Source: Planoprotostelium fungivorum
Lineage: Eukaryota > Evosea > Variosea > Cavosteliida > Cavosteliaceae
Assembly: GCA_003024175.1 (NCBI GenBank)
Contig: MDYQ01000019.1
Coordinates: 124,001-188,000 of the forward strand
DNA length: 64,000 bases
Reading direction: 5' to 3'
Shown in pieces: positions 1-44,006 of this stretch (within the stretch, counting starts at the first letter, position 1; every line of letters starts with the position of its first letter). The position numbers and the translations under genes are program-made. The notes below the pieces were generated by a model, which was not told where the DNA came from, searched no databases, and saw nothing but the letters and a program-made list of their open reading frames with translations.

Positions 1-2615
1 TGGATTTACCATCTACAACGGTGTAGACTGACTTCATCAGTTGATCCCCACCCGCAGTGCCTGCGGTCAGTCGAATACCATCCTACTCGATTACAGCGGG
101 TACATCATGAACGCCACCGTTCAGACTTCATCACTGAGCAACAGAGTCCCTCTAAATCTGACGACACCGAATGTCATCAGACAAGGAGGTGCCACCATCA
201 CACTGCAGGGCAGTGGTATCGGTTTGGACGGTGAGCGTTGTAGATGAAATCGGAAGTTGAGAAATTTCCAGGAAATTTGGGCCCCCTGGAGTACGTACGC
301 CTCAAGTACGACAATGGCACCGTCTACAACGCTCACTGCTCTGTCTCCAATCAGATCATCACCTGCGACGTACGTTTTTGGCGGGAAAATCGACTCAAGC
401 GTACAGGTTCCACCCGGTAACGGCACGGTATCTGTCACAGACGTCAGCCTCTGTCAGCAGACGTGGACCGTACAAAACAACCAGCCACTCCAATTCGCCA
501 CCCCCAACATCACAACCGTGGTGTCCGTCGGTAACTACCGCGTCAACGTCGTGGGACAGAATCTACTCTCTACGGATGTCAGGTAGATCTCCGCGAAATT
601 TCTCCACTCACAGGATCAGTGTACTGGTCAATGGTTCTTCGTGGTCCATTCTGCCCAGCAGCCGCTCCGATGTCCTCTACCTCATCTTGAATGTCACTTC
701 TCAGAAGAGAGCTGTGTCTTCTCCACTCGTTGCAGGACAGAGCTACCCCCTCACCATCACTTACTTCAACCAATTTGTCTATTCTTACTCTTTCAATTTC
801 ACCCGTGAGTGTGCATCATGATGAATGGAGTTGAAGGCATGCAGTCGATTGTTCCAGCAGCGAGGGCTGTCTGAATGGAGTCTGTCAGACATCATCCAAC
901 GTCACATCACAGAACGTCCTCCAACCCAGTGACAGCAGGTGATCCAATTTCCCACGAATTCTCCTCAGCTTCTCCAGCAACTTTTGCAACTGCGATTCGA
1001 CCGATTGGATTGGGCCAAACTGCAACACGTCCACCTCTGCTTGCAGTGACTGTCAGGCACCGAGGAGATGCATTCGTCAGATCGACAACTCCCTCACTTG
1101 TGTAGATCCAAGCTCTGGGGCCGGCCCCAGCTCGAATCGAACCACGGCGATTGTCGTCGGTGTCGTCGTTGGTCTCTTGGCCGTGGGAATCGTAGCGGGC
1201 ATCATCGTATTCGTCGTGTGGAGATCGAGAAGGTGAGGTGTCGACGTTTATGTATGTCGACGTCGTTGTAGATCGGACAGATACGGTAACGCGTTCATTC
1301 CCCTCTCGAACCAAAATTTCGATCGCATCATGTACGGATGTCTGCACGATCAGGTGACTACAACCCGCCATTTCGAATGTAGAAGAGTATTGACTCGATG
1401 TTCAGCCCACGGTGAGAATGGAAACACAGCACATGAACTTTGAGAGATATTTGTTGGGTCTCAACGACTTCTCACCTCTCTTTGATCTGTGGGGCTGTGT
1501 CGTGGCAGGTTCAGCCGACGCAGAACAATTGGTCATCTCCCTCATCATGGTCATGCATGAGAGCAAGAAGGTGAGAAAGGATAGAGAGACCTTCTCACGA
1601 AATTGAACTCGACAGGTTCCCAACATGTTGGAACAGGCACTGACTTACGATCTGAGACAATCAGGTGAGGCGCGTTGTAGATGGTGAAGACTCATCGAAA
1701 ATCAGACTCGAAGACGCTCTTCCGAAACAACAGCATCTGCACGAAGATGTTCACCGCTTACAGCAAATTGATCGGTGTGGGATACATGTATGAAACGATC
1801 GGCCCCGAGATATCCAATCTCGTCTCCGATGAGACTGCCATCGAGGTACGTAATCTACTTCCTCTCTCTCTGGCAAGTTGTAGATGGCTGATAAACCACA
1901 GGTCGACCCGGATAAAATGCCGGAGGGTGCTGATTATGATGAAGCGAGGTGGTTCTTGATGGGTCACACTCAGAAAATCCTCAAATCCATATTTAATCGC
2001 GTCGATCTCTTCCCGAGGTGATTCAACATCTACAACGTTGTAGATGCTCAAGTGATGTGCAGAGAATTGGCCGTCTTTTTCGATCAAGTCCATTCCAAGG
2101 TTTCAGTCTTGTTCCCAGGATCTGAGAGATCTGCCCTGGGTGGTTTTGTCTTTCTGAGATATTTCTGTGAGTTCTTATCGAAATTTCTCCTCTGACCCTA
2201 ACAAGGTCCGGCGATCTCTACACCAGAGACGTGGGGTCTTTTAGACGACAGACCACCTGATGTCACGAAGAGGTGTCTCATCCTCATCACGAAAGTCCTT
2301 CAGAACTTGAGCAATGACGTCAAGTTTGGAGATAAGGAGACCCACATGCAAAAGTGTAACGATTTCCTCGTTGCAAATCGCGAAAAGTTGTCCAATTATT
2401 ATGCCAAGTTATTGGTGAGCACCGTCATGATGATCATGATCGTGGACTTGTTCTGTATAGATCGAGCTGACGAGAAACAGAAACGTTCGACCAAGCCACA
2501 AGAAGAGACGGTGGTGAGACCGGACATGAGGGCCAAGGCGATTCATAATGTATACACTATTGCGAACAAGCACAGAGACAAACTACAGCCCCAGCACCCT
2601 GACATGTTTCCCTGA
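1..2615 (+). CDS. Receptor-like protein: IPT/TIG and EGF-like ectodomain, one membrane segment, cytoplasmic RasGAP domain (5' part outside window)
   Basis: The gene enters from the left edge, so its N terminus is not seen. Up to about 830 the spliced reading gives beta-rich sequence with the look of IPT/TIG repeats (for example TPNITTVVSVGNYRVNVVGQ). A Cys-rich EGF-like stretch follows at about 850-1110 (CLNGVC, CNCDSTDWIGPNC). One hydrophobic membrane helix (AIVVGVVVGLLAVGIVAGII) lies near 1145-1215, followed by basic WRSRR. The cytoplasmic half is a canonical RasGAP domain: the arginine-finger block TLFRNNS at about 1714-1734 and the FVFLRYFCPAI block at about 2145-2210, split by an intron. 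RasGAPs speed GTP hydrolysis on Ras-type GTPases; both key arginines are present, so activity is expected. Introns are short. Stop TGA at 2613. Coupling a RasGAP to an IPT ectodomain recalls plexins, but the GAP belongs to the ordinary RasGAP family. No Sema domain is visible in the part present. Confidence 0.85.
12..27. repeat. 16-bp near-palindrome, intronic family member (variant)
   Basis: TCTACAACGGTGTAGA, one base off the perfect palindrome TCTACAACGTTGTAGA found at 2029, 11990 and 43262. It is the exact reverse complement of the copy at 14832. It lies in what appears to be the intron before the first readable exon of the RasGAP receptor gene. Confidence 0.6.
2029..2044. repeat. 16-bp perfect palindrome TCTACAACGTTGTAGA in an intron
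   Basis: A perfect 16-bp inverted repeat inside a short intron of the RasGAP receptor gene, between the exon ending ...NRVDLFP and the exon beginning ELAVFF. The same 16 bases recur at 11990 and 43262. Confidence 0.8.
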
Positions 2616-3070
2616 TCGGTTAAAATACAAACCAGACTCTATCGTTTTCGTCTCCATCACAAGAGAGCACCAAACTGAGATGTCTCGCAGTGCATGACAG
2701 ACAGATCGACACAGAAAGAGGCCCTCGCTTTGATATCTCCATAGATGTCGCGACCCCAATCCCCATCCAATTGGAAATGGACGTCAGATCACACAAACGC
2801 TTGACTGCTCTAAGTCAGGTCGTTCATATGGACCTATCTCGAAGATAAAACGGAGGCTCAAATCCTTCGCACGTGAGGTCAGGAGAGGCGTGACATCAGA
2901 CCGAGTCAGCTCGAAACAGGGAACTACTGGATTCCTCGACAGAGAAATGGAAGACTATCTTCCGGGCAAGATCTGCGGGAATCTGGGCAAGTCATGTGAC
3001 GAGCCATTTCTCAGTTGTGTAGACCCGAAATTAAAGTTCCGCTTTACATTCATCAACGACCACATTCGCC
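2616..3070. other. Intergenic interval between the RasGAP receptor and SDHA
   Basis: 455 bp between the stop of the RasGAP receptor and the SDHA start. It should hold the 3' end of the former and the promoter of the latter. Short open stretches exist, for example about 2650-2848 (+), but lack a convincing start, splice partner or recognisable family. No repeat or RNA gene was recognised. Confidence 0.5.
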
Positions 3071-5312: not shown

Positions 5313-5396
5313 ATACATTCTTTGTCTCATCTTGTCCTCTTTTCCCTTCTATTGCCTTCCAGACACCATCATCAACAGCAACAACCAAATCACATC

Positions 5397-7241: not shown

Positions 7242-7300
7242 GACCACCCAGAAACCCTCCTCGTTCGAACGTCATCTTTAAAATTGGATGAGATCATCTT

Positions 7301-11043: not shown

Positions 11044-14000
11044 ATGAGCTCTTCCAACAGCGCCAATGTAAAAAAGGCGAAGAAGCTTCAGAAGATCTTA
11101 AAGGAGAAGATCCCTGCAGTGAAGCGGTATAAGACGCTCGTCTCTTATTCGGGTGAGATCTTGATACTTTACCATCTTCCCTCATCCACTCATATGGATT
11201 CAGAGATGGCCGATGTGACCGAACTGCAAAAGCTATTGAGCGATTCGACTGATTTGGTTTACAATATAATCACTGAAAGGTGGAACGAACTCGAGACGAC
11301 TTCCAAGAAAGGTAAATGAAAGACCCATCCGAAACATGTTTACCATCCTGACACATCCAAAGTCAAAGCACAAGCACCCGACGTCCTCACCTTCCAAGAG
11401 TTCTTACTGCGAATTTTCCCCCAGCTCCCTGTCGCTGCCAAGAGGAAATACAAAGAGAAGGTCAATTCCAACTCATACGACATTCAAAATGACATCCACA
11501 GATCCATTCCGTCTTAGATCGTTGTCTGGCCAATGGAGTCAAAGGAAACGTCCGCAGTGGCGCCCTTCGTCTTCTAATGTGTGTCATCGACAACTACAGA
11601 GATGAGATGGATGAAGAAGCTCATCTCTTCGCCAACACGATCAACCTATCTACTTTCGGTCCAATCTACACGACTCAGACCGGTTCCACTGCTAAATTCA
11701 GATGCAAGCCAAAAGACAGTGAGTGGACATCACCATCCATCTCTAACAGAAAACAGTCAAGGAAGGAGAATCGATCTGTGGTACGGCACCGTTGGAATTG
11801 ATCACGAAAGAGGACACATTAGCCCAGATCACACAGTTTTTAGATGCCCTGGAGAAGAAAGACACGGAAGATTTCGACTTCTGGTTCACTCTCTTCAAGG
11901 AATTCTACCTCTCCACCCTTTACCCCAAGATCTTTCAAGAACTCAAGTTGCTCAGCAAGACGGACGGTGAGTCTTTATTCAAAGTGCTCTCTACAACGTT
12001 GTAGATACGGGTTTCGTCCTCGGTTGCCCCGGTGACATCCAACAACTGTTGGTCGACAGACTCGAAAAGTGGTCGTCTAATTCTTCTATCTCTCACGCAC
12101 TGTGGGACAACAACAATGCACCGATTCTCAACGAAATCTCCCGCCAGACGTGCAGCGTATTACCCATCAACTTTGCCGACACCGTACACAAGTCAAACAT
12201 GATCTTCTACCAATGGTTATCCGTGAGTCACGGATCACGTGACTTCACCGTGTAACCATGGTGATAGGACAGTGGACCTCGATTGGGGGCACGTTATCAG
12301 AAGTACTGGCAGTTGTATTTAGACAACGTCTGCAGCGTTTTCACTCGCAAGGACAAATTGGAGGACACTACCTATCAGGGACTGTGTAGAAAGACGGTCA
12401 ATCTCATCATCAGTGTGTGCAATTTAGACAGCAACATTGATGATGCCACGTGGACTTCCTTTCAGATGTCATACCTCAAGAGTGTCCACACACAATTCGC
12501 CCACTGCCAGAGCAAGGAGGGTTCCATGGGAGGCGTACCGGATCAAATATTTGGAACCCTCTTGTACGCTTGGATCAAATCTCCCGCCACGACCAAGATG
12601 ATGTGGTCGGAATTTCAGGTGAAATTCGATTTCATCTACAACGAGTGACACCCCCAGGCATTAGTCTCCGAGCTGAGAGAATGGAAGTTCATCGTGGCCG
12701 TGTGGAAAGAGAAGCTCGTCCAATTGAGTTACATCCTCAAGGACTTCATCTACTCCACACACAAGCACGCAGATCTATACGGCTCCATGAGAAAGGCATC
12801 TTCCTCTGTGTCTAGAGATCCCAGATTAGATGCCATCCACTGGTCATCAGGAAGGATCACGGAGGTGAAGTGTTCGTGATGTGTGTGGACTGACGACGAC
12901 AGGTGTGGTTCATCATGTTGGAGATCCTGGGGGACATCAACAGCATCAAAGATGGGAACAATCATCACATCACGATGACGGCCATCAAGGATGTCATCGA
13001 GATCATCTCCATGGCAGAGTTAGACACCCTCAAGTTCAACGGTGAATAATCTTGATTCGAATCGAAATCTCGTTGAGAATCGACTGACGACGTGACAGAC
13101 ATGGAGCCGATACCTCTGATGGGAGTCTTCTTGGGAGTTTTATTAGACGCGTGTTACAATCGTGCCCCAGAGAAAATCAAGGGAAGGTTATGCAGCACGG
13201 AGGTGATCATCGCACATGACGATGCACATCATGACACAGTCAGGTGTTGTGTGACATGTTCACCCATCAATCGTTCAGACCGAGAGACATCCGAATCTTG
13301 AGTCACTTCTACACGTTCATCATCTCCGTGTTAGACGCCGAGGCCAGCAGCAAGACCAGCGAGGACCACTCCGTCGTTCTTCAGATATTGAGCGGTTGTA
13401 GATCGGTATTTTCCCTCGAATTACCGGGCAGCTACATCCTCATCCCCAGCATGATCCAACAGATCACCCAATTGTTCAAGAAGGTGATCCATTTTATTCT
13501 ATTTTATTCTCAATCCAACAGAGCGACACCCCGGAGAGTACTCTGGTCGAATGCATGACCATCATCTCCTCCATCATTCCCGTGCCCTTTCACCTCAAAG
13601 AGATCAACAAGTGAGGCACACATCACCCATCCATCTGAATGACGTCAGCTTCACGAACTGGATCAATGGAAGTGGTGGTAGCAAGGAGGAGATGTACAGA
13701 CAGTGTTTCCAGATCATTCAGATGGGAATCCATCACGCGAATCCCAACATTCAGAAGCCATCCATCTGTGTCCTCACTTCCCTCCTGGCCATCATGATCA
13801 CCAACAACAAGTGAGAGACCCTCCTTCACTCGATGCATCTATGTATATCCATCATGTATATGCATCTATGTATATGCATCTATGTATATGCATCTATGTA
13901 TATGCATCTATGTATATGCATCTATGTATACATCATGGACATCCATCATGTTGAATGTTTGCAGTCCTCTCGGATTAGAGATCGATCAGTTGATGGAAGT

Positions 14001-16085
14001 GCTGTTGGGACACAAGACCGACCTGTCTTCCATTCACATGACATTGGATGCCATGTCCACCATCGCTTCCTTCGATCTCTCTCGTCACCCCACCGTCATC
14101 CCTGCGGTGAGTCGATTGCGATGAAAGTGTGATGACGTCATCACAGATGGTCGGCAAGTTGAGCTCGGAGCTGTTGATGTACATGAACGCCAACCAAGTG
14201 AATGGAGAGGAGGAGTCTGTCATCTGTCATCACTACCAGGCTGCAGTCGATGTCCTATTGAACCCTGCGGCCACTTTCATCTTACGAGACGAGAAGTACA
14301 ACAACCCCCTTCTCTACGTGGGATGACGTCATAGTGATCGATGGTGACGTCAGCAGGTACTGACGAGGGGCATGGAGCATTCGAATGGGAACATCAAGGA
14401 GGCAGCACACAGCAGCATGCTGTTCATCATGGAGGACTACTGTCACTATCCTAGACCCTCTGGTGTGGAGAATGACAATACAGTTCCAAATGCCTGGGAG
14501 ACCGAAGACAAGATGACTTTTGTCTACGCTCACAACACATCCAACGTCCTCGTCGTATCTCTAGGTGGGTCACACGATATCCTGCATCTCATCCCTCGTT
14601 TCATCGAAAGTGACGCGTTGTAGATAGTCGCAATCGATGTAGAATGGTGTGCAGGAATGCCATGGGAAAGAGGGGATGGGTGTCTGAGATATTACCCTCG
14701 GACGTAACTCCAAGTCAGCCGGTTCCAGCTCTAGAGCAGGGAACGTTTCAACAGATTGTGCCCTCCCCCCCTCCCCCCCACACCATCGACAACCCCCTCT
14801 ACAACCTGGCGAAACAGATCGGGTGGGTCCATCTACACCGTTGTAGACTGACTCGACGACAGAAAGAAGACCCTCATCGATTTAGAGAAGGAGGATGAAG
14901 GTTTCACTGCTGCCATCGAATCGAGAAAGAGAGAATTGGCAGAACAATCAAAGAAGGAAGAAACATTCGTGTCCCACTTTTCGATCGATCCACGCCCACA
15001 GACCATCTACCCAGGTGAAACATTAAAACCATTTCTAAATCCTTTTTATTGCAATATATTCAAGACTGATGTGATGGCAGACGGAAAGAACAAGGCCGTG
15101 TTACCCATGCAGAACATCCGTCTACAATTGATCCAGTGGGGATTTGTAGATGTATCGAATCTAGATCGCTGGATTCCCCTTCACAACGACACCCACCTCC
15201 ACACTTCCCTTAAGAAGTTCGATCAGTTACCTGTACGAGATTGGATCAAGATTGGTAAGACATCTCTTCTCTTCTCTCTTCTCTCTCTTCTCTCTCTCCT
15301 CTTTCGATGTGTCTGAATGTATGTACAGGTGTCATCTATGTAGCCGAGGGACAAGAGGATGCCAAGTCACTGTTGACCAACAACAGAGGCTCTGAGGCAT
15401 TCAACCGTTTCCTCTTGACTCTGGGGTGGTCCATCGATCTCTCACAACACCCAGGCTACACCGCCGGTGAGTTTTATTTCCTTTTATTTCCCCCCGTTTG
15501 AGACCCCCCAGGTCTCGAATCCTCCGACGCAAAGACGAGCGTCTACTGGTGCAACTCCCAGCAGGAGGTCAGTCCCAAATTCATCTCCGCGAGATCTCCT
15601 AACATCTCCAGATCTGCTATCACGTGACCACCCAGATCTCCGGCAGCGACCCCGAATCCAACGTCCAGAAACGTTTCCTCATCGGAAACGACTCCGTCGA
15701 GATCATTTGGTCCGAGCACGGCCGCGACTACAACCCCAACATTCTCCCCTCCCAGTTCAACGACGTGCAGATCGTTATCTACCCACAGCCCTCCCACATG
15801 TTCCGCGTTCAGATCTTGAGGAAGCCGAAGGTTCTCTTCTTCGGTCCTCTGATGGATGAGATGGTGGTACCACTGGAGACCCTCGCAGTGATGGTCAGAC
15901 AGACGGCAGTGCATGCGAATCGGAACGTGAGGAATCTGACGAAGGGATACGTGAGGCCGGTGAATCAGAGGTTCGGACAGTTGAGGCAGATCGTGGAGAA
16001 GTACAGGGACAATCTTCCCATGGGGGATACGGCCGCTCAGCTCTTCGTGCCTCCTCAGGCGACGAGTCGTGCCGCTTCACCGTGA
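11044..16085 (+). CDS. RALGAPA: RalGAP complex catalytic (alpha) subunit homologue
   Basis: RalGAP alpha, working with a beta partner, stimulates GTP hydrolysis on Ral/Rheb-like small GTPases and is related to tuberin. Start MSSSNSANVKKAKKLQKILK; the family also opens with a short Lys-rich helix. A long alpha-helical (HEAT-like) region follows, with family-like LTFQEFLLRIFPQLP. The C-terminal Rap/RalGAP domain at about 15320-15960 is diagnostic: EAFNRFLLTLGWSIDLSQHP, then NDSVEIIWSEHGRDYNPNIL, FNDVQIVIYPQPSHMFRVQI, RKPKVLFFGPLMDEMVVPLE and VMVRQTAVHANRNVRNL. The Asn of GND at about 15688 aligns with the catalytic 'Asn thumb', so the enzyme should be active. Many short introns, one carrying a 14-bp tandem repeat and two carrying the TCTACAAC palindrome family. 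It ends at SRAASP, TGA 16083. It converges with the receptor kinase on the minus strand. Confidence 0.92.
11990..12005. repeat. 16-bp perfect palindrome TCTACAACGTTGTAGA spanning an intron 3' splice site
   Basis: The perfect palindrome lies at the 3' end of a RalGAP intron that starts GTGAGT at 11967. Reading resumes in frame with ATACGGGTTTCGTCC, so the intron most likely ends at the TTGTAG of the palindrome itself. Confidence 0.75.
13831..13932. repeat. 14-bp tandem repeat in a RalGAP intron
   Basis: About six head-to-tail copies of TATGCATCTATGTA, with a partly matching flank. All lie within the intron between the exons reading ...LLAIMITNN and NPLGLEIDQLMEV. Confidence 0.9.
14832..14847. 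repeat. 16-bp near-palindrome in a RalGAP intron
   Basis: TCTACACCGTTGTAGA inside the intron between ...AKQIG and KKTLIDLEKE. It is the exact reverse complement of the variant at 12-27, so the two are the same element in opposite orientations. Confidence 0.7.
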
Positions 16086-21608: not shown

Positions 21609-24600
21609 ATGAGTGGTCAGACACGTGTGGTCCTCGTATTCCTCACCCTACTACCCATAGCATGGGCTGTGAACTGTGACCACCAGGTATCTACTGTGGA
21701 TCAGCTCAAGCAGGGTGAATGAGCTCTTTGATCTCTGTACTGAGCCCATTCCAGCCGTGATCAGTCTAAACAGTTCATGTGAGCTCAGCACAATCACGTT
21801 CAACGCTACACAATTTGGCGGCTCACAGACCGGGGAGAGAGTTTCCATCCCCTTCAGCTCTGATACTTCTCTTGTTCTGAGAGGATCGGGCTCGATCCTC
21901 TACATCGGTTTAGACATTATCGGCAGTGGAGGTCAAGTGAACATCTCCGGTCTGACTTTTCTTTGGGGACACAACACATCCTTCGCCTTGAGTATCACAT
22001 CCGGCTCCACCGTCTTTTTGGAAGGATGCACGTTCAACGGTAATCCAGCAGGTGGCTTGACCATCGTCAACCCATCACGCTTAGTGTCTATCCACAATTC
22101 ATCCTTCTCCGCTTGTGGTAATCTAGGTGATTCCATCAGGATCTCATTCCGCTCATCCTTTCCCAGTGACAGCTCAATATGAAGGCGGCTTCTATCTGGC
22201 CAACGGTTCTAACTGCGATGTTTCCATCAGTCATTCCATCTTTCGAGATAATGTGATGACCAATGCCATGGGTCTAGGCTTCGTCTTGGAGGGAACCTTC
22301 AAATCCATCATCATCTCAAACAGGTGACTCCCAAATTCACTCGCTCGCGTTGAATCCCTTTCCAGCGATTTTCTCAGGAACATTGGTGCCGGTGCCGGTG
22401 GCTTCTACTTCCCCACAGGATCTACCGCTAAGACCTTCGTGGTGCAGGATTGCCTCTTCGATGAGAACGAATCGAATGCTGTGACCTCACCCGGTGGAGG
22501 GGCTGGATTCCTCCTGGCGGGGGACGTGGAAGAGTCCGTCACCGTCAACCGAAACTACTTCTCTCGTAACACGGCCATCTTTCAGTCAACCGGTGGTGGA
22601 GGTGACATCATCGACGACCTCATCTGCCATCACGATTATGACGGGAGTAGCTCTAATTTTACTCAGGTTTTCAGATCTTCGGCAGCACACCCGTACTGTA
22701 CGTTAACTCGAGCTACTTCTTCAACAACAGCGCTTACGAAGGCAGTGGGTTCTGTCTTCAAACCTATAATCCTTCTTCTCACATCTTGGTGGTCTTGTAC
22801 AACTGCACATTCGACACGAATGAAGGATACACCGCGACAGCAGTTTATTTCAACCAGCAGATCAGCACGTCGAGCTATCTGATCGATTCGTGCACATTTA
22901 TCAAGAACAACGGAGACACTTCCACTCCCACCTTTCTTTTCAGTAATCCATATACAGAACGAGTGAGAGACTGTCTGATTCATCTCTTCTCGTCTCATCA
23001 TTCCATAGTTGGAAGTGAGAAATAGCTACTTCTCTCGCATCACTCTAGGACTGCAGGCTGTCGTGAACATTGGAAATCTGAACATCAACTCACCCGCTCA
23101 CATGGTGAAGCTGATTCATCTCCTCACAACTCCTGTCTTATCGTCTTAGGTCATTTTCGATAACGTGACCTTCGACTCGAACCCTTCTGGAGCGATCGTT
23201 GTTGGAACTCATTCACCATTGGATAACCTCATCGTCAGAAATTCGAAATTCATCGAAAACAGCGGGTTATTCTTGGGAAATGCTATCGGCATCACATCGA
23301 CAGTGACAAACTTTACTGTACTCAACTCTCTCTTCACTGGTCAGACATCACGTACGTTCGGAGGTGCTATCGCTGTACTCACTGCCATCGTGAGTGTTGT
23401 GTACATTTCTAATATCATAGATGATGACATGAGAGACAGAATGTGAAGATCAGTGGATGCACTTTCACAAACAACTCTGCGCTGGCAGGATATGACGGAG
23501 GGGCGATCTTTATCGAAGAGGCTGTGAGTGTAGAGCTGGAAGACAACTACTTTGAGGGCAACTTTGCGACACAAGGAGGTGCTGTGGGCATTCTGACAGC
23601 CACTCCGGTGAGTGTTGTCAAGTGTGATAGGGTATCATGACATCGATAAGATCATCTTTCACCGATACGATCTGATACGGATGTAGATACAGATAAGCTT
23701 GATCAGAAACAGATTCGACAACAACGTGGCTGATCATCTGGGAGGCTGCATCTTCTTTAACTCTGTGGCAGCACAAGGCAGTCAGCTGGTGATCGTGGAC
23801 TCTGTGTTCCACAACAACAGCGCTTTGTACGGCGGCGTGCTACAGCTGACAGGCGACATCGATGCGATAGTGCTGAGCAACGTGACAGCTTCATCGAACA
23901 CAGCCAGGTGACTCTTGTGTTACTGCGATGATCTATGGATTGAATGAGGACAGGTCAGGCGCAGTCATCTATCTGCAGAACAGCGATCAGCTCAGGTCGC
24001 TGAGCATCAATCACAGTACATTCTGTGCCAATACCGGTTCGGAGACGGGCGCCATGAATTTACAGATACCGATACGTGATTTGAGTATCATCAGTGAGCG
24101 CAGTCCATCAGTGTCGATGTAGCTGATGAGAGCAGACAGTATCTTCTCGAGGAACGAAGCAATTACCGGCTTTGGTGGAGCACTTTCTCTGCAAGGAATA
24201 CTGCGGGGGCGATTGTACAACATCACTTTCGATGAGAATTTAGGATTATACGGTGGGGCGATCGCACTGATTGGGCAAAGTAAGAATGTCACGTTCGAGA
24301 AGATCGAGATGCTGCATAACAGAGCACATATTAGCGGTGAGTTGCTACCCGACATTCTTGACGTGTTGATAAATGCGATGTGTCGACACATTGAATACAT
24401 TGAAACCCTTTGCTTCTTTCAATTTGTCTACGCTTATGATATGTCGACAGGGGGAGCCCTATATGTACAAGATCAGGCCACACTCGGCACGATCGGGATC
24501 ATCAACTCCAACATCAGCTACAACACGGCCAATCGAGACGGTGGTGGCTTCGAACTGAGAGGTAGCAGTGGAGATATTCTCATTTCTGCCTCCTCTTTCT

Positions 24601-26465
24601 CGTTCAACTCGGCCAGCGGCAACGGTGGCGCGATGTACACGGTTCTGCGCAATACTATGGTCATCCTGAGCAGCAGTACGATGACATACAACAACGCATC
24701 AGGCAGTGGGGGCGCAGTATATGTGGTGGCGACAGAGGGAAGCACAAGCAAGAGAGCAGCGAGAGCAGAGATGAGGCTGAGCAGAGACATGATAAACGGA
24801 AACAGAGCAGAGGGAACAGGAGGAGGAATGAGTGTGGGAGGGGGAGCTACAGTGACTGTCAGCGAAGGATCGATCACTGGCAACACAGCAAGTGGTGGAG
24901 GAGACAGTGCTGTTGTACAGCCCAGCGGATCAGTACAAATGTCAGGAGTAGAGAATGGGGGGTCACTGTTGATCACAAGTGCATCGACTGTGAGTCATTA
25001 GATGTATTTTGTGGATGGATTGATTGACACAAGACAGTTCATCGCGAATAATGGAACAACTGGCGCCAATGTACAATGCGACACTGGGCAGGCTGAGCGA
25101 TCATCGGATGGCTCCTATTCTTGCGTGACACGACCTCCGAAGAATATCGGACTCATCGTTGGCCTCACACTTGGTCTTCTCTTCATCGTCATTTTGGTCT
25201 CTGTTGTTGGATTTTTCATCTGGAGGTAAAAAATGAAATCTAACCTTATTGAGTATATAACAGGAACATCGTCCATAAGAAGGCAGAAGAAGAGCAGAGT
25301 ATCGTAGCTCTGACTAGCGCTCTGGGCAAAGATCAGCAAGGCATCATCGACTATGATGAGCTCAAGAACGTCAGAGAGGTAGCCACGACAGACAGCAGAG
25401 GAGTGATGGTAGCTGAGTGGCGAGCCATACAAGTGTCGATCAAGCAGATCGACGGAAAGCTGGGATACGAAGAGCTGTCAGGCTTTATGAAAGAGGTGGC
25501 AGTGCTGCGAGACATGAAGAGACATCCGAACGTCGTGCTGTTCTTGGGTGTGACAGTGCCTCCTCAGCCTCTGTCTTTCGTCACTGTGAGACTGTGACGC
25601 ATCACTTATCTTCTGACGAGATGACAGGAATATGCAGACGGAGGCAGTCTGTCTGATCTGCTGAAGAGCGGGCGAGAGATCGACTACAAGGTGAAGCTGC
25701 AGTATATGGCGCAGATAGCGCTGGGCATGAACCATCTGCACTCAGAGGGCATCATACACAAGTGAGTAGCATCATCCTCTGTCCTCTTATAGTCATCTCA
25801 CAAGATCAGGGATTTATCTACCGAGAACATACTGATCACAAAATCGATCATGAAGGTTGCCGGTTTTGGTCTGTCACAACTGAAGGCGAAGAGTAAATTG
25901 GAGAGACTGGGAAAGTCCGCCAAATACATGGCACCAGAATGTGAGAGATCGATACCTCACGGAATAACGGATTCGAGTGCAAACTGAACGGTGACAAGGT
26001 ATATCAAGCGAGCTACAGAACCGTGAGACGGATGTATACGCTTTCTCCATCTTAGTCTGGGAACTCCTGCACGAATCAGAGCCGTACCCCTTCTGCACTT
26101 CGGTCGAGATAGCCGTGAGTGTCACACAAGGTGGAAGGCCTCCAGTGGATAGCTCTCCTCTGGGAATGCTCCTCTCAGGTTTGCATCTCTCGGTTCTTCT
26201 GTCATTTCGGTCCCTTTTGTCTTTGGTTCATCTGATACCGGACAGATTGCTGGTCTGAGAGTCCAAACGTTCGACCGACATTCAACGTGAGTCGAAGATG
26301 ATGAATGGTACAGGAGCTGACGTTGTACAGGACATCTGCATTGCACTGGAGAGAATGGGAACTATATCCAGGGAAGACAGAGATGAAGAAATCCCCAGAG
26401 TAGAGGGGAACCACTATTCTGGTATAGGATACCGTAGAAACAACCTCGTTGTGGAGACTCCATAA
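21609..26465 (+). CDS. Receptor-like TKL pseudokinase with beta-helix ectodomain, copy 1
   Basis: Start at 21609: MSGQTRVVLVFLTLLPIAWA, a signal peptide. The ectodomain (to about 25000) is a right-handed beta-helix repeat array (NNSALAGYDGGAIFIEEAVS, DNNVADHLGGCIFFNS, NSASGNGGAMYTVL, NNASGSGGAVYVVA). A membrane helix (IGLIVGLTLGLLFIVILVSV) lies at about 25150-25225. The kinase-like domain spans 25260-26370 (VSIKQIDG, HPNVVLFLGVTVPPQPLSFV, YADGGSLSDLL). It lacks the Gly-rich loop, has HKD in place of HRD, and has GFG where DFG supplies the Mg-binding Asp. It is therefore probably a pseudokinase acting by binding or scaffolding. The tail ends ...NHYSGIGYRRNNLVVETP, stop 26463-26465. Highly similar to the next gene, and divergent from the active kinase at 16230-21343. 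Confidence 0.87.
23293..25766. repeat. Near-identical duplicated tract, copy 1 (pairs with 28336-30802)
   Basis: From the exon with TSTVTNFTVLNSLFTGQTSR to the intron after the kinase-like HLHSEGIIH segment, this stretch matches the next gene almost base for base, including introns. For example, the 42-nt intron at about 25586-25627 differs at about two positions from its partner. Outside the tract the two genes match only moderately. Confidence 0.85.
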
Positions 26466-26679
26466 ACAGATCATGTACCTATGAAAAATCCCTTTTGATA
26501 GGGGCCAGAGATATTCTTGGTGTCAGATTATGCTAAACCAAATTTCGCATCAAAATTACTCAGCGGAAGGCTCCTCAAGTGGAAATCGGTTGTAACTTCA
26601 CCCCTTTGACCTCGAGAGATGACAAGAGCAGCCTTTTGAGGCGATTCCGCATTGTCGTCTATATTCACCCGTCTCTTCC

Positions 26680-29600
26680 ATGAGCCCCAAAGATGTCGTG
26701 TTGGTATGTTATATACTACTGATATCCGTCGCATGCGCTGCTGTCTGTGATGAACGGATCTTCTCACTCTGTCTCAGCTGGTCAACGGTGAAAATTCGTT
26801 CATGTACATATCGATGATCACTGACTTTCTTAGCTGCGAATAGTCTGAACAGTTCGTGCAATATCATCACTCTGGTCTTCGATGCGACACAATTTGGAAG
26901 TCCGGAGATGACTGAGAGGGTGTCCCTTTTCTTAACTGGGAATTTGACTGCACTGGTCTTGAAAGGAACAATCAACTCGACCCTCTACCTGGGTTTGGAC
27001 ATCGTCGGCGATGGCAGCCGGACCGTCAACATCTCAGATCTGACCTTCCTGTGGGCGTCCAGCAGGTCTTTCGCTGTCGAGATAACAGGCGCCTCATCTA
27101 TATTCGTGGAAGGATGCACTTTCAATGGTAATCATGGTGGTGGCCTTACCATCGCCCAGGCGTCACAACTGGTGGTCATCTACAATTCTACCTTCTCTGG
27201 CTGTGGAAATCAAAGTGATGGTCATCTACGTCCACAGCATCTCATTTTCTTCTAGTAACTCCCCAATACGTCAGCGGATTCTACTTGGCGAACAGTTCGA
27301 GCTGCGATGTGCTCGTCAGCCATTCCATCTTTTGGGATAATGTGATGCCCAACGCAACCGGTGGTGGATTTACCCTAGACGGAACTTTTGGGTCCATCAT
27401 CGTCTCAGACTGCGACTTTCGGAGGAACATCGCCGCTGGTGGATGTGGTTTCTACTACACATTAGGCTCCATCGCCCAAACTTTCTTGGTGGAAGATAGC
27501 TTCTTTGACGAGAATTATTCTTATCAAGTATACTCGCCGGGTGGAGGGGCCGGTTTTCTCTTGGCGGGAGATGTGGAGGAGTCCATCACAGTCAACAGGA
27601 ATCATTTCTCTGGTAACACGGCCGTAGATCAATCCTCGGGTGGTGGAGGTAACACCACCATCTAATCGTCTTCCTTCGCGACCTTCGTCATTTCGTCATG
27701 CTCCGATCTGAATCAAGAATACAGGTTTCCAGATCTTCGGCGCTACACCCGTACTGTACGTCAACTCGAGCCTCTTCTTCAACAACAGCGCATTTGAAGG
27801 CAGTGGGTTCTGCATTCAGACTCTCAGTGTGCAATACGATCTCTTTGTGGCGTTATTCAACTGTTCATTCGACGCGAACGAAGGATACACCGCCGCAGCA
27901 ATTTTCTTCAATCAACACGTCAACACCACCACATACGAGATCGACTCGTGTAATTTCATCAATAACAACGGAGACGCTTCCACACCCACCATCTTCTTTG
28001 GTAACGGACTGACCGATCGAGTGAGGTCACATTCTGCTCTTCTCTATGAATAACACGCACAGTTGGAGATGAGAAACTGTTATTTCTCTGAGAACACTCT
28101 CGATCTGCAGGCTACCGTCGATGTCGGTAATATGAATCTGAACTCGCCCACTGAAATGGTAAGTTGGCGTCTTCTCTCTCTCCTGATTCATATTCAAGGC
28201 CATCTTCGATAACGTCACATTTGAGTCCAATCCCTCTGGAGCTATTCTGGTGGTGGCTCCATTCGATCATCTCCTGATCTCGAATTGTCAATTTATCGGG
28301 AACACCGATCTGTTCTTGGGAAATGCAATCGCCGTCACATCGACAGTGACAAACTTTACTGTACTCAACTCTCTCTTCACTGGTCAGACATCACGCACTT
28401 TCGGAGGTGCTGTTGCTGTACTCACTGCCATTGTGAGTCATTTGTGCTGATATCACAGATGATGACATGAGAGACAGAATGTGAAGATCAGCGGATGCAC
28501 TTTCACAAACAACTCTGCGCTGGCAGGATATGACGGAGGAGCGATCTTCATCGAAGAGGCTGTGAGTGTAGAGCTGGAAGACAACTACTTTGAGGGCAAC
28601 TTTGCGACGCAAGGAGGTGCTGTGGGCATTCTGACAGCCGCTCCGGTGAGTGGAGTTAAGTGTGATAGGCTATCGTGACATCGATAAAATCATCTTTCAT
28701 CGATACGATCTGACACGGTGTAGATACAGATAAGGTTGATCAGAAACAGATTCGACAACAACGCGGCTGATCATCTGGGAGGCTGCATCTTCTTCAACTC
28801 TGTGGCAGCACAAGGCAGTCAGCTGGTCATCGTGGACTCTGTGTTCCACAACAACAGCGCTCTGTACGGCGGCGTGCTACAGCTGACAGGCGACATCGAT
28901 GCGATAGTGCTGAGCAATGTGACAGCCTCATCGAACACAGCCAGGTGACTCTTGTGTTACTGCGATGATCTATGGAATGAATGAGGACAGGTCAGGCGCA
29001 GTGATCTATCTGCAGAACAGCGATCAGCTGAGGCTGCTGAGCATCAAACATAGTACGTTCTGTGCCAATTTCGGTTCGGAAACGGGCGCCATCAATTTAC
29101 AGATACCAATACGTGATTTGAGTATCATCAGTGAGCGCAGTTTTTTCATCAGTGTCGATGTAGCTGATGAGAGCAGACAGTATCTTCTCGAGGAACGAAG
29201 CAATTACCGGCTTTAGTGGAGCACTTTCTCTGCAAGGAATACTGCGGGGGTGGTTGTACAACATCACATTCGATGAAAATTTAGGATTATACGGTGGGGC
29301 GATCGCACTGATTGGACAAAGTAAGAATATCACGTTCGAGAAGATCGAAATGCTGCATAACAGAGCACAATTTAGCGGTGAGTCGCTATTTTGTCGACAT
29401 TATTGACGTGTTGATAAATACGATGTGTCGACACGCATTGAATACTTTGAAACATTTAGCTTCTTTCAATGTGTCTATGCTTATGATATGTCGACAGGGG
29501 GAGCTCTATATGTACAAGATCAGGCCACACTCGGCACGATCGGGTTCATCGACTCCAACATCAGCTACAACACGGCTAATCGAGACGGTGGTGGCTTCGA

Positions 29601-31529
29601 GCTGAGAGGCAGCAACGGCGATATTCTCATTTCTGCCTCCTCTTTCTCGTTCAACTCGGCCAGCGGCAACGGTGGCGCGATGAACACGGTTCTACGCAGC
29701 ACTATGGTCATCCTGAGCAGCAGTACGATGACATACAACAACGCATCAGCCAGTGGGGGCGCAGTGTATGTGGTGGCGACAGAGGGAAGCACAAGCAAGA
29801 GAGCAGCGAGAGCAGAGATGAGACTGAGCAGAGACAAGATGAGTGGAAACAGAGCAGGGGGAACAGGAGGAGGAATGAGTGTGGGAGGGGGAGCTACAGT
29901 GACGGTCAGCGAAGGATCAATCACTGGCAACACAGCAGGTGGAGGAGGAGACAGCGCAGATGTACAGCCCAGCGGATCAGTACAAATGTCAGGAGTAGAG
30001 AATGGGGGGTCACTGCTGATCACAAGTGCATCGAATGTGAGATGTGTTTCGTGGATGGATTAATTGACACAAGATAGTTCATCGCGGCCAATGGAACAAC
30101 CGGGGCTGATGTACAATGCGGCAGTGGGCAGGCTGAGCGATCATCAGACGGCTCCTATTCTTGCGTCACACGACCTCCGAAGAACATCGGACTCATCGTT
30201 GGTCTCACACTTGGTCTTCTCTTCATCATTTTGGTCTCTGTTGTCGGGTTCTTCGTTTGGAGGTAAAAATGAGATTTAACCCAACTCAACATACAACAGG
30301 AACATCGTTCATAAGAAGGCGGAAGAAGAGCAGAGTATCGTCGCTCTGACTAGCGCTCTGGGCAAAGATCAGCAAGGCATCATCGACTATGACGAGCTCA
30401 AGAACGTCAGAGAGGTAGCCACGGCAGACAGCAGAGGAGTGATGGTAGCTGAGTGGCGAGCCATACAAGTGTCGATCAAGCAGATCGATGGAAAGCTGGG
30501 ATACGAAGAGCTGTCAGGCTTTATGAAAGAGGTGGCAGTGCTGCGAGACATGAAGAGACATCCGAACGTCGTGCTGTTCTTGGGCGTGACAGTGCCTCCT
30601 CAGCCTCTGTCTTTCGTCACTGTGAGACTGTGACGCATCACTTCTCTTCTGACGTGATGACAGGAATATGCAGACGGAGGCAGTCTGTCTGATCTGCTGA
30701 AGAGCGGGCGAGAGATCGACTACAAGGTGAAGCTGCAGTATATGGCGCAGATAGCGCTGGGCATGAACCATTTACACTCAGAAGGTATCATACACAAGTG
30801 AGATGTATATCATCTTCCATCGTCTCACATCCAACAAGGGAACTGTCAGCGGAGAACATACTGATCACAAAGTCTACGATGAAGGTGGCAGGATTTGGTT
30901 TGTCACAGCTGAAGGCAAGGAGCAAAGTGGAATGGCTGAAAAAGTCAGCCAAATACATGGCATCAGAATGTGAGTCGATCCACCTAATCGAACTGAAGGA
31001 CTTCAGCCATATCGAGTGAGATACAGAACCGCGAGACAGATGTGTATGCTTTCTCCATCTTGATTTGGGAGCTCCTGCACGGCGCAGAACCTTATTCTAC
31101 TTCTACTCCAATAGAGATTGTTATGAGCGTAACGCACGGTGGAAGGCCTTCAGTAGACGACTCCCCTCTGGGAATGCTTCTGAAAGGTACGACTCTCTTT
31201 TCCCTCTTCTCGAAATTATCCATTCATTCATCTCATTCTCCACAGATTGCTGGGCTGAGAGTCCAGATATCCGATTGACCTTTAACGTGAGACAGGATGA
31301 TTCGATGCAAGACAAGGTTAACGATGCACAGGACATCTGCATCGCGCTGGAGAGAATGGGAACGATATCCAGGGAAGACAGAGATGACGAAGAGGAGAGG
31401 TGGAGGGAAGAGAAAGAACCCCACTATTCAGGTATGGGGTTTCATAGTGGTCCACTCAGGAACAATATCATTGTGGAGAATCACTACTCTGGAATGGGTG
31501 ATTTCACCTTCATCGCGGAGGGTACATAA
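26680..31529 (+). CDS. Receptor-like TKL pseudokinase with beta-helix ectodomain, copy 2 (tandem duplicate)
   Basis: Start taken at 26680 (MSPKDVVLVCYILLISVACA), a signal peptide in frame with Cys-starting mature sequence. Ectodomain, membrane helix (IGLIVGLTLGLLFIILVSVV) and kinase-like domain follow the same order as in copy 1. The N-terminal region (LVLKGTINSTLYLGLDIVGD) is clearly related but diverged. The central region is almost identical. The kinase-like domain has decayed further: no Gly-rich loop, the catalytic loop reads HKELSAEN (Glu replaces the catalytic Asp), the Mg-binding motif reads GFG, and APE reads ASE. VSIKQIDG keeps the Lys. Catalysis is very unlikely. The tail repeats a motif also found in copy 1: HYSGMG occurs twice. 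Stop 31527-31529. 214 bp separate the two copies. Confidence 0.85.
28336..30802. repeat. Near-identical duplicated tract, copy 2 (pairs with 23293-25766)
   Basis: Partner of the tract at 23293-25766, offset about 5.04 kb. It covers the distal half of the ectodomain, the membrane helix and the N lobe of the kinase-like domain together with their introns. Similarity drops sharply in the intron following HNHLHSEG-type sequence (about 30800) and upstream of about 28330. Confidence 0.85.
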
Positions 31530-37938: not shown

Positions 37939-37950
37939 CTCTGCGATGCT

Positions 37951-39926: not shown

Positions 39927-40320
39927 CTTGATATCGCGTATGACGATGAGCAGGGATCCAATCTCCGTTGTAGAAGTGACATGGAATTTCACTCCGAATT
40001 TTTAGACAAAGCTCATCAGCCCTGAAGCCTCTAGCGATGCTATAGAAGCAGATACGATCTTCTATATGACCCCATCTAGCATGTGGTGATTGGTGATACT
40101 ATCTCTGACCATCAATCAATCCGGGTATAGACCTCTGAGAATGGTGGGAGTCATTTTTACCGTTCGTCCATCTGAAGAGGCTGTCAATTCATGGGTATCG
40201 CTGCTGTCAGGTGTATACTTCACCCGTTGTCTCATCGAGCACCATCTTTAACTCGGTCTCGAATAGAGGGCTTTCTATCAAGAGCTGACTGTCTTCAGAA
40301 TCGGATCGAGGCTGGCTGAG
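39927..40320. promoter_or_regulatory. Divergent upstream region of RBBP6 and the SPRY-repeat gene
   Basis: 394 bp between the two start codons, expected to hold both promoters. A short open stretch from an ATG at 40141 reads MVGVIFTVRPSEEAVNSWVS and stops after 36 codons. It could be an upstream ORF of the SPRY gene or chance. No other feature was recognised. Confidence 0.45.
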
Positions 40321-43045
40321 ATGGTGCAACCGAAAGTGTCGCAATTGTCAAAGAGACACTACAACGGACAGCCTGAGAGAACGGCAAAGAGGAGACGCCT
40401 GGTCATGGATGTGACGCAGGATGCAGAATCTCGAGATGATTCAACACCATGGGAATGGTCGAAATTGAGATGTCCAGAACAGATCAAGTTGTCTGATGAT
40501 TATCGTCTGACTCCATCATACGGCCAGGCAGATGGAGATATCAACGAAGAAGATATGATACGTGAGATTCCACGGATTCGCTGCAACATGGTCTGATAGA
40601 GGATCCAGTCTTTCAAGCATCAACGACGGGGGCATTGACGACGGCCGAGAGAATCAAAACCGAAACCGAACTCAATAATCCAGCCGTTCAGGCGGCCCAG
40701 CCATTGACCGAACACAACTGCACATTCACCGTCATCATCCAAGAATTGGGCAAATGGTTTGGAATTGGTATTTTGAAACGGAAGACACAGTCATCTGAAG
40801 AAGATCAGGTGTCGCCGATGAAGAATTTCAATTGGTGGGAGGTAAGACTCTGGGGACACAGACAACAGGAATCAACTGTGGATATTTCTGTCAGACGAAG
40901 AGCGGTGAAACAGATATCCACAAGGTACTTACCATCACCTCCATCCTCATGATGACCTTCTCTCAGATCCAAATCCACAGTCAAGCCGGTTTAGACGCTT
41001 CTCCCTTCAAAAGGGGAGACTCTGTATCTGTCCGTGTCCACTATGCATCTCACACCATTTATTTCTTTTTAAACGGTCTATTCCAAGGTAATTCGTTCCA
41101 TCGATCTCCGTTCAGACCGACAGGTTACATCTACGAGCCTCTTATTCAAGACGGAATGTTATGGCCCACCATCCATCTATCCCACGGCACAACAGTCAAA
41201 CTCTCACATGATTCCATACCTCAGGTACATTCTACTTGTCTATTCATCTGAAGAGAAGTAGATGAATGCAAGTCTGTCTATGGTCAGACCCTCCAGTTTG
41301 AGTTGGGAGTGGTCAATCAAATCGACGAAGAAATCTGAAGGGGTCCGAATCGATCCGAATTCTCGCGGGAAACTCGCGTTACGTACGATCGAAGAGTGAG
41401 GAGCTTCGTAACGAACCATTGGCTGATTGTAGATAGACCCATCGTGACGAATCCAGCCATCATGTCCCATCAAGGTTTCACACGCTCTCGTCCTCACTTC
41501 CAAATCAAGATCGAATCATTGGGTGACATCATACCTCTCTCCCCTACACATCGTTGAGACATCTCAGGAAAGTGGCTGGGTATAGGAGTCTGTGATGAAA
41601 AGTTTGTGGTGACAGACAGCAAGACCCTGGGAACACAGAAAGGCTCCATCAACAGCGCCTATTTCTGGCAGGTCACCGGCGTGAACAAGTGAGAGACATC
41701 TCCACGAGTTTTCTCTGATGAGTGTCAGGTTACAGATGACATCGGAGAGACCGGTAGATGGAGTGGAGATCCTCAAAGTCAACGATGTCGTTGACATTTA
41801 CGTCGATTTCGATGCGAACAAGATTCACTACTTTTCAAACTCTCAGTATCAGGTGAGATGAATGTTCACATCGTGGATTGACATCGATTGAACAGGGTCA
41901 CATCAATTGTTCACAATCGATCATGAAAGAGAACGAATTGTATCCCTGTGCCAGCATGTCCGTTGGTACATCCGTTCTCATCGTGGACAGCCCCAACGTG
42001 ATTGGATGGGATGATTGGATGGGATGACATGACATGAGACAGTTCAGAGCGGGCTGGATGAAAGAGAGAAGAGAAGAGAAGAGAGAAGAAGAAGGAGATC
42101 AAGTGTCCACCGTGAGAGATCTGTTTTGGATCAGGAGGGCCATCGGTCGTGAACATTCAAAGGAAGACACTTACGATCCATCTTTATTCAATCAGACATC
42201 TCATCCCAGTGAGTGAATCATCGAATCAAATCGACATCACATCACGAATCGAAGCGGCAACATCGTCGATGTCAGATCGATCCGATTGGATGACATCCGA
42301 CAGTGAATTGGTCGTGGGGAAATGACATCCAATCGAAATCGAAAGTCATCGAAATCCACGAGCAAGGTCTGGTGGCCAATCGCATCACAAACGAAGGAAA
42401 CAATCCAGCCGTTATGACTGCCCAGCCCTTCACGAGAGTCTCTTGTTACTTCAGTGTGAAGGTTTTATCGATGGGACCGTGGATGGGAATCGGTGTAGCG
42501 GATCGAACCTTCTCCCTCGATGATTCAAAGACATTGGGTGAATCACATCGACGAAGGGTGGAATCGACTAACTGATGGATAGGAGAGCAGAGGTGTGGAT
42601 TGAACAGCAGCTACTTTGTGCAAGGAGTACTGAGACAGTTACAATTGTTTGGAGAGAAGATCGTTGATCAAGTGAATCCCATCACCGTGGGAGATGTCAT
42701 CAGCATCCACTTGGACTTTGATGAGAGGAGGGTCAGTATTCACATGAAGCGTTGTAGATTGACGTGGGGTAGATCCATTACTATCACAATCACGTGAAGC
42801 AGGGGAGTCTCTCGTGTGGAAAGCATGAACTGTTAGAAGGCTCCATCTTCCCCTGTGTGAGTCCATGTCATTCGCTACTGTTCCACCTCCTTCACACAAG
42901 TGATGCTGCACGCGATGATGACGATTAGTCGATGATCGATGACTTTGAACAGGTGGACATGTCACCCAACACGAGCGTCTCCATTGTCAATTTCCACAGC
43001 CCTCCCGCCTCGAAACTCTACGACATGGACATCATGTCTCACTGA
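40321..43045 (+). CDS. Protein with three SPRY-like domains
   Basis: Start at 40321 (MVQPKVSQLSKRHYNGQPER), followed by KRRRLVMDV, a possible nuclear signal. Three related modules follow, each opening with a W-x-W motif (TPWEWSK, LSWEWSIK, NWSWGND). Each contains a 'NPAV-AQPFT...F-V-I...LG-W-GIG' core (NNPAVQAAQPLTEHNCTFTV; TNPAIMSHQGFTRSRPHFQI; NNPAVMTAQPFTRVSCYFSV), a G-N-xxYF strand (GINCGYFCQ; SINSAYFWQ; GLNSSYFVQ) and a D-VDFD...IHYF strand. This is the SPRY/B30.2 fold pattern, a protein-interaction domain. The modules could be read as three genes. However, short introns at about 41225-41261 and 42000-42044, and the one ending at 42303, keep one frame across the joints, and the gaps leave no room for promoters. 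Ends KLYDMDIMSH, stop 43043. Confidence 0.7.
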
Positions 43046-43080
43046 ACATAAAGAGAACGAAAGACACGTGTCACTGTTCT

Positions 43081-44006
43081 TTACTGAATGAGAGACTGTC
43101 CTCCATCGATCCACACTTCGGTTCCGGTGATGTGCGTCGATTGATTTCCCGCCAAAAAGGAGACGAGGTCTCCCACTTGCGAGGCCTTTCCCGCCTCTTT
43201 TCCTGTGAGGGGGATCTCTCCTTCGGGGTAGTCCCTGGGGATTCTGTGGAAATTTCAGTCGTCTACAACGTTGTAGATGGAGAATGAATGACCTGATCTT
43301 CTCGAGGTTTCTCGCGTCGGTACCAACAGTGTGGATTTCAGAGTCGATTCTACCGGGGCAGATGACGTTGACTCTGATCTTGTCTCTCGCCAGTTCAACG
43401 GCCAACAGTTTGGCCATGGCAGTCTGGGCTGCCTTTGTTGCGACGTAAGCGGTGGCACCTGTGTTGGAGAACATCCTCGTTCCATTGACGGAAGATACGA
43501 CGACGATGCTGCCACCTCCGGCGGCCTTCAAGTGGGGAACGCTGTGTTTGATCGTCAAGAAGGATCCTGATAGGAGTGAGAAGGTGGGGAATGGAAAAGT
43601 GATCACCGTGGAGATTGGTATCGACAGTCTTGGTGAACTCTTCAAAGGTAAGCTCTTCGATGGGAGCCCAGACACCGTTCATTCCTGCGTTGACGACGAC
43701 AATGTCTACCTTTCCGTAATGATCCTTTGCCTGTTTGAACAATTGGATAACATCCTCTTCCTTCGACACGTCGGCCTCCACAATGTAACCGTCACCTGAC
43801 GGAGTGAGTGATTCACAATCTGAAGACGATTCACCTCCATTCTTCTTGATCTTCTCCAGAGTCTCTTCCAACTTCTCTCTTCTTCTGGCAGAAAGGACGA
43901 CTTTAGCTCCCTGACCAGCGAGACTGTTTGCTGCGGCCTGACCGAGACCAGTTCCAGCTCCTGTGATGACAGCCACCTTTCCTTCAAATCCTGGGTTTGT
44001 TGCCAT
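43081..44006 (-). CDS. Short-chain dehydrogenase/reductase
   Basis: Classical SDR, an NAD(P)-dependent oxidoreductase; the substrate cannot be told. Start at 44006: MATNPGFEGKVAVITGAGTG, with the cofactor motif TGAGTGLG. Then ADVSKEEDVIQLF, the structural NAG motif (VVNAGMNGVW), the catalytic Ser in VVSSVNGTRMFSNTG, and Tyr-x-x-x-Lys in AYVATKAAQTAMAKL. CPGRIDSEIHTV follows, and the C-terminal strand THITGTEVWIDGGQS is typical of the family. Ends at SLIQ, stop 43081. About 260 residues, normal length. Short introns interrupt it; the one near 43245-43290 carries a perfect TCTACAACGTTGTAGA palindrome. It converges with the SPRY gene, with 35 bp between stops. Confidence 0.9.
43262..43277. repeat. 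16-bp perfect palindrome TCTACAACGTTGTAGA in an SDR intron
   Basis: Third perfect copy of the palindrome. It lies inside the intron between the exons encoding ...NLEKI and RIPRDYPEG of the minus-strand SDR gene. Confidence 0.8.

Follow-up and report, generated by a model that had tools for sequence, protein, structure and literature searches.

A two-fold-symmetric intronic word of Planoprotostelium fungivorum as a candidate DNA recognition site within gene bodies

Introduction

Why should a perfect 16-bp palindrome, TCTACAACGTTGTAGA, recur inside introns of three unrelated genes? The question arises from a 64-kb stretch of the genome of Planoprotostelium fungivorum (contig MDYQ01000019.1, positions 124,001–188,000, forward strand), here called the window. 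A preliminary description of the window reported the palindrome and offered three readings: a decaying introner-like or MITE-like (miniature inverted-repeat transposable element) sequence, an intron-borne DNA-binding site, or a hairpin that aids splicing of tiny introns. The copies that it listed are all present: three perfect ones, two one-mismatch copies that are reverse complements of each other, and six half-copies, found at most one or two bases from where they had been placed. The five full copies all lie in predicted introns of the RasGAP receptor, Rap/RalGAP and SDR genes, as had been said.

Of the three readings the DNA-binding site fits best, with the amendment that the site is borne by gene bodies, since exons carry it too. 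The 16-mer is probably a complete recognition site in double-stranded DNA, with two-fold symmetry and the half (n)CGTTGTAGATGG, placed in gene bodies and read by a putative dimeric binder. The preliminary description passed over the tenfold abundance of the half-site, its exonic copies, and a gap over the first ~600 bp of genes.

Copy number and symmetry

In the genome (36.86 Mb, 471 contigs; the window makes up 64 kb of it) the palindrome has 681 exact copies, and 1609 sites match it with at most one mismatch, against 0 and 5 for a reversed-pattern control. Within the window itself, 7 sites match the 16-mer with three mismatches or fewer, where 100 dinucleotide shuffles gave 0.13. The claimed excess over chance thus holds at both scales, and the genome-wide count is far from a composition-level expectation. 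The half-site CGTTGTAGAT outnumbers the exact palindrome about tenfold, with 7984 matches (3973 + 4011) against 62 (27 + 35) for the control. Elsewhere the exact 16-mer was found in 79 stretches of a prokaryote collection and 13 of a viral collection; by our own arithmetic, which assumes equal base frequencies, some 60 are expected by chance in 257 Gb. These counts are near chance, and the abundance is therefore peculiar to the motif's own genome among the collections searched.

The halves are joined in one preferred way. Genome-wide, 681 overlapping palindromes compare with 64 inverted pairs (spacings of 0–30 nt taken together, and including a few cases of a full palindrome plus a further half) and only 10 everted pairs; among the matches listed, 13 of 50 inverted pairs have a 1-nt spacer. 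Such a preferred arrangement of two halves is what is expected of a site in double-stranded DNA. Where both central positions were changed, a perfect palindrome was restored in 27 of 40 sites. Compensated changes of this kind are no less compatible with a symmetric site than with a hairpin, and so we did not use them in deciding between the two.

Placement in introns, exons and intergenic DNA

Genes were modeled with a hidden-Markov gene finder, self-trained on the sequence without RNA evidence and with motif positions scored neutrally. The sample of 264 kb comprised the window and 20 stretches of 10 kb, of which 15 were chosen for holding a listed copy, one for contiguity, and four (L005–L008) held no listed copy. 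Its models contain 1044 introns with a median length of 44 nt, and its bases are 62% coding, 21% intronic and 17% intergenic. The window reads as eukaryote DNA whose introns are tiny, short and densely packed. Joining adjoining stretches gave 314 kb with 108 genes and 1244 introns, and the distance tests below use the 1185 introns for which the gene start is visible. The counts of palindromes and of the 8-bp half given next refer to the 264 kb.

All 29 perfect palindromes are intronic (chance 1e-20 at the intronic share of the DNA), and all 41 sites with at most one mismatch overlap a predicted intron. The intronic confinement in the preliminary description therefore stands for the full palindrome. 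It fails for the half-site: introns contain 146 copies of the 8-bp half CGTTGTAG, exons 34 and intergenic DNA 7. The exonic copies exceed what the encoded protein would produce, since one orientation has 13 half-sites where synonymous-codon shuffles give 0.9 ± 0.9, and the opposite one has 30 where they give 7.8 ± 2.8; an earlier run, on the 264 kb, gave 10 vs 0.4 and 24 vs 5.4. Two control words in exons were near their synonymous expectation (21 vs 22.3 and 16 vs 12.9).

Orientation in introns was also informative. Of the half-site instances in introns, 144 in all, 71 are parts of palindromes or near-palindromes and say nothing of strand, 32 are in sense and supply the TAG of the 3′ splice site, and 41 are internal. 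The internal ones show no strand preference (24 sense vs 17 antisense, p 0.35), as a DNA-binding site would have it. The fixed overlap of the halves together with the lack of strand preference points to a dimeric protein on double-stranded DNA.

Intron length was considered as a driver of motif placement and rejected: introns with half-sites have a median length of 43 nt vs 44 nt for others, and the motif rate is similar across 37–50 nt. Motif rate per gene is uncorrelated with GC content at third codon positions (rho 0.02, 77 genes). It does correlate with coding length (rho 0.44), which is expected from the distance rule described next.

Distance from the gene start

The motif is all but missing from the beginnings of genes. 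In the 314 kb, none of the 293 introns at or within 600 bp of the start codon has a half-site, compared with 118 of the 892 lying beyond (p 5e-16). A 154-kb subset not picked via the copy list (the window, its neighbours, C142 and C1:1-40000), which nonetheless contains the window where the motif was noticed, shows 0 of 189 introns within 900 bp and 28 of 381 beyond (p 1e-5). The promoter-proximal enrichment associated with intron-mediated enhancement is accordingly not seen in these first 600 bp.

Distance, not rank, is what counts. Introns of rank 4 or higher that lie under 600 bp have no motif (0/37), while those of rank 1–4 beyond 900 bp do (6/26; p 0.003). Intron rank was rejected as the driver, because below 1500 bp distance separates motif introns better (area under the receiver operating characteristic curve, AUC, 0.754 vs 0.704). 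The gap is also seen among exonic half-sites of genes whose start is visible (24 in the 264 kb), with 2 in the 51.4 kb before 900 bp and 21 in the 64.2 kb at 900–3000 bp. When the 507 8-mers found 35 or more times in genes were ranked by depletion near starts, the top two were the half-site's own words.

Depletion at gene ends is weaker: among 97 introns that lie in a gene's last 400 bp with no other start near, 5 have the motif, vs 106 of 656 further in. As to whether a neighbouring gene's start would have the same effect as a gene's own, introns near both their own stop and another gene's start have the motif in 3 of 20 cases, a small number.

A possible mobile element as the source of copies

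The many copies, their inverted symmetry and their intronic placement would all suit an introner- or MITE-like element, with the palindrome as the residue or terminal repeat of an intron-creating sequence. We looked for other traces of such an element. Among 39 palindrome introns, an 8-mer outside the motif is common to 3 of 741 pairs, which is the level of masked controls (2.8 ± 2.0), so that the shared flanks that the preliminary description suggested looking for were not found. Repeats of at least 6 bases at the intron junctions occur in 3 of the 39, vs 4.0% of 833 control introns, and the mean longest repeat is 3.64 vs 3.47 bases; the cases are few. Motif introns are not longer than others, and spaced inverted pairs within 30 nt are few.

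Paralogues seem to tell against the element too, for intron positions are shared between them when the motif is in only one. In the one pair compared in this way (38% identity, positions matched by eye on the alignment), an intron of equal position and phase but free of the motif answers to each of two motif introns. Two paralogous stretches, 68% identical, have four introns that all match in place and phase, with sequences that by eye are unrelated. Intron sequence is thus lost fast, and a 16-bp word can stay perfect in 681 copies only if it is maintained or formed anew. The tests of flanks, junction repeats, length and paralogues gave a mobile origin no support, and we consider it highly improbable.

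A possible splicing element or hairpin

A second alternative acts in RNA. On this view UUGUAG would work in the pre-mRNA, as a 3′ splice site of choice or as an enhancer within the intron; the palindrome would be one of its variants or would fold into a small hairpin. TTGTAG is indeed the second commonest acceptor hexamer, ending 43 of the 1044 introns, after CATCAG. Motif introns also fold more stably than their shuffles: palindrome introns at −8.9 vs −6.4 kcal/mol (30 introns) and half-site introns at −7.4 vs −6.6 kcal/mol (73 introns).

Several observations oppose this. Internal half-sites occur in both orientations, the exonic excess is on both strands, the early gap is seen in exons as well, and motif introns have ordinary splice-site scores. 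Nor is a stem present in every motif intron, since in 82 of the 113 introns with a half-site no exact second half is present (61 are sense-only and 21 antisense-only; at most 12 of the 82 are one-mismatch palindromes), and the hairpin of the palindrome cannot form from a lone half-site.

Introns free of CTACA/TGTAG, GACGTC and CACGTG were examined as well. In 667 of these (70 nt or shorter) folding was at shuffle level, −5.90 vs −5.86 kcal/mol. In 759 of them, palindromes of at least 8 bases numbered 182 vs 157.9 and those of at least 10 bases 65 vs 45.7 ± 6.1; for longer ones the counts were 19 vs 13.0 (at least 12 bases) and 4 vs 2.8 (at least 14 bases). Palindrome enrichment is weak once the named words are set aside, so the signal belongs to specific words. 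Shuffle-level folding and this weak enrichment ruled against the splicing hairpin of the preliminary description, and we regard an RNA-level splicing element of whatever form as unlikely.

The copies at splice sites can be read in two ways. TAG and a following A are already favoured at that place, which makes it an easy evolutionary route to the site; the same copies also make the strongest case for a part in splicing.

Companion words and unevenness between genes

The start gap is common to two other words. In the 314 kb, one of the 54 genic GAAATTTC sites falls in the first 600 bp; for GGCGGGAA, which we take to resemble E2F sites much as the half-site resembles Myb-type words, it is 1 of 35. 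A further word, TGACGTCA, has 8 of 66 there and follows the start rule weakly or not clearly. In exons, GAAATTTC and GGCGGGAA are both commoner than synonymous-codon shuffles would give (18 vs 5.0; 15 and 11 vs 2.2 each). Within gene bodies, a half-site lies at or within 300 bp of 47 of 59 GAAATTTC sites (null 19.6 ± 3.7) and 25 of 35 GGCGGGAA sites (null 11.8 ± 2.8), the null being random positions matched for exon or intron. At the same distance the control CACGTGAC showed no excess (14 of 35 vs 12.0 ± 3.0), and the control TTTTATT showed some (27 of 52 vs 16.9 ± 3.6). Half-sites do not cluster among themselves (17 of 172 within 100 bp vs 21.1 ± 4.3).

Genes differ strongly in their motif content. 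Gene-level overdispersion among body introns is 2.65, where the maximum of 3000 shuffles was 1.96, and the motif is present in 37 of 66 genes with at least 3 body introns, vs 48.0 ± 2.7 under random spread. In a tandem paralogue pair (38% identity, intron positions largely matching), one gene has motifs and its neighbour has none.

These results bear on a third alternative, a DNA-level site with some role other than gene regulation, such as a recombination, replication or chromosome-structure signal kept off promoters. Avoidance of starts and mid-gene placement do not by themselves point to transcription of the host gene. The gene-to-gene unevenness and the co-clustering with the E2F-like word look more like gene-by-gene regulation, and a non-regulatory signal therefore seems to us improbable.

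Some further observations on these words can be added. GAAATTTC is a third symmetric word, and its gene-by-gene co-occurrence with the half-site has a rho of 0.57 (74 genes). A second intronic palindrome, TGATGACGTCATCA, whose core is TGACGTCA, is intronic in 50 of 59 cases and often positioned with TCATCAG serving as the 3′ splice site; in the window it is found at 13640-13647, 14133-14140 and 14324-14331. GGCGGGAA occurs 24 times in exons, 8 times in introns and once in intergenic DNA of the 264 kb, so in gene bodies rather than upstream, and it pairs with itself within 100 bp in 10 of 35 cases (null 0.8).

A probable gene-body recognition site

We return to the double-stranded DNA recognition site. 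A sequence-specific protein would most likely bind it as a dimer of fixed geometry, with the halves overlapping at the central CG. The site would be used in transcribed gene bodies from ~0.6–0.9 kb downstream of the start codon, and would form part of intragenic clusters with GAAATTTC and the E2F-like GGCGGGAA. Introns would hold most copies as the freest sequence inside the gene body, and codons would hold them too where the encoded protein permits. Where the TAG of CGTTGTAG doubles as a 3′ splice site, point mutation may have given the site an easy origin. Binding by a protein, its dimeric state, an effect on transcription or chromatin of the host gene, and an exclusion from the start region are what we infer from the pattern of copies.

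A number of points weigh against this account. Intergenic DNA holds only 9 of 213 sites, a scarcity that is unusual for a site regulating transcription. The motif's own TAG is the 3′ splice site in the 32 sense half-sites and in at least 5 palindrome copies, which a pure splicing role explains more directly. Below 1500 bp, distance counted in genomic bases is as good a predictor of the motif as distance counted in exonic bases (AUC 0.754 vs 0.763); the two are inseparable, the distance may be measured along either DNA or RNA, and this also speaks for splicing. Exonic half-sites beyond 3000 bp number just 1 in 23.1 kb, at odds with a simple distance rule, and the unrelated GCAGAGAA and GAGAGATC are also among the top ten start-avoiding 8-mers. 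The null for co-clustering was not matched by gene, and a shared preference for certain genes may explain the excess. Other points concern the sample and its models: selection of 15 of the 20 10-kb loci for a listed copy is a sampling bias; some gene models are merged, for example a telomerase model that continues into other genes; and the stop codon inside the motif can bias the gene finder to call an intron in one frame of three.

A broader proposal, which we make tentatively and hold to be possible rather than probable, is that a sizeable part of the gene-regulatory DNA code of this organism is kept within genes and not in promoters. The symmetric words TCTACAACGTTGTAGA, GAAATTTC and perhaps TGACGTCA, with the E2F-like word, would stand in mid-gene tiny introns and synonymous codons of selected genes, from 0.6–0.9 kb after the start codon, and the tiny introns would be docking sites. 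If so, docking would be a splicing-independent reason to keep tiny introns. Regulatory words are usually sought in promoters and first introns, and a high-copy motif that avoids starts, is rare between genes and stands in introns and codons alike would be an unusual regulatory layout.

Copies in the window and their host genes

Motif sites in the window are collected in Table 1. Pfam was run on segments of four predicted proteins, and gave RasGAP (7.4e-26), Rap_GAP (1.4e-42) and adh_short (2.2e-52). In two of the introns with full copies the reading frame spans the intron within a domain match (residues matched by hand), and these are supported by continuity of the domain on both sides; the other three full-copy introns are predictions of the gene models.

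Table 1. Copies of the palindrome, its half-site and companion words in the window, with the introns that hold them
Feature	Position	Strand	Remarks
One-mismatch palindrome TCTACAACGGTGTAGA	12..27	.	RasGAP receptor intron, opening one base before the window and ending at 40; ~0.92 kb from predicted start codon
Intron with half-site CGTTGTAGAT at 236 and GAAATTTC at 261-268	231..271	+	RasGAP receptor gene
Exonic half-site CTACAACG	324..331	+	RasGAP receptor gene
E2F-like GGCGGGAA, intronic	380..387	+	RasGAP receptor gene
Intron with the motif's own TAG as 3′ splice site (CGTTGTAG at 1264-1271)	1233..1271	+	
Intron with sense half-site CGTTGTAGAT at 1673	1665..1705	+	
Intron with perfect palindrome 2029-2044	2018..2062	+	Within RasGAP domain match
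Intron with perfect palindrome 11990-12005, motif TAG as predicted 3′ splice site	11967..12004	+	Rap/RalGAP gene
Intron with antisense half-site TCTACAACG at 12635	12619..12657	+	Rap/RalGAP gene
Intron with terminal CGTTGTAG (14616) as predicted 3′ splice site	14565..14623	+	Rap/RalGAP gene
Intron with one-mismatch palindrome 14832-14847	14823..14862	+	Rap/RalGAP gene
Intron with sense half-site at 42750	42732..42772	+	Gene convergent with the SDR gene
Intron with perfect palindrome 43262-43277 and GAAATTTC at 43249-43256	43244..43292	-	Within adh_short_C2 match, SDR protein
Intron with sense half-site (motif 50113-50121)	50098..50137	-	
Intron with antisense half-site at 54409	54344..54432	+	
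Exonic half-site CTACAACG	54483..54490	+	Predicted gene shared with intron 54344..54432

Two tandem paralogous genes occupy 21609-31529 of the window, with 81% protein identity and long repeats ~5.04 kb apart; by eye they are receptor-like. None of the motif words scanned for was found in them. Outside the window, L009 (C1:140001-150000) has a telomerase reverse transcriptase gene (Telomerase_RBD 8.4e-11, RVT_1 2.4e-9), and the telomerase part of its model has six motif introns.

Comparison with known systems

Among the open-licence PMC papers that our searches listed, we saw no report of the motif, either as the 10-mer ACAACGTTGT or among palindromic or intronic gene-body motifs or introners. 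The nearest known cases are compared here.

The Arabidopsis word TTNGATYTG is described as splicing-independent and active from introns, and when placed in 5′-UTR or coding sequence, within ~1 kb of the start (PMC6760150). It too is a short repeated intron word; unlike it, the present motif is absent from the first ~600 bp and is symmetric. Plant GATC-motif downstream elements enhance transcription from downstream of the start in reporter assays (PMC11525189). They resemble the present motif in lying within the transcribed region and in that position relative to the start matters, whereas the present motif avoids the near-start region and is known from sequence alone. In grasses, transcription-factor footprints lie in promoters and gene bodies, many possibly in codons as duons (PMC6790085). 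The putative sites here are similarly in gene bodies and partly in codons, but a single word is dominant, and intergenic DNA has little of it.

Introners are element copies inserted into exons (PMC9860276); in those of Amoebophrya, inverted repeats connect the 5′ end of the intron with its 3′ end, and there are short direct repeats that overlap the intron borders (PMC7789003). A repeated sequence in many introns is common to both cases, as are inverted repeats in that of Amoebophrya. Here, by contrast, the common sequence is a 16-bp word only, and border repeats are near control level. Avoidance of the start, scarcity outside genes and exact symmetry together appear to set the P. fungivorum motif apart from these nearest known cases.

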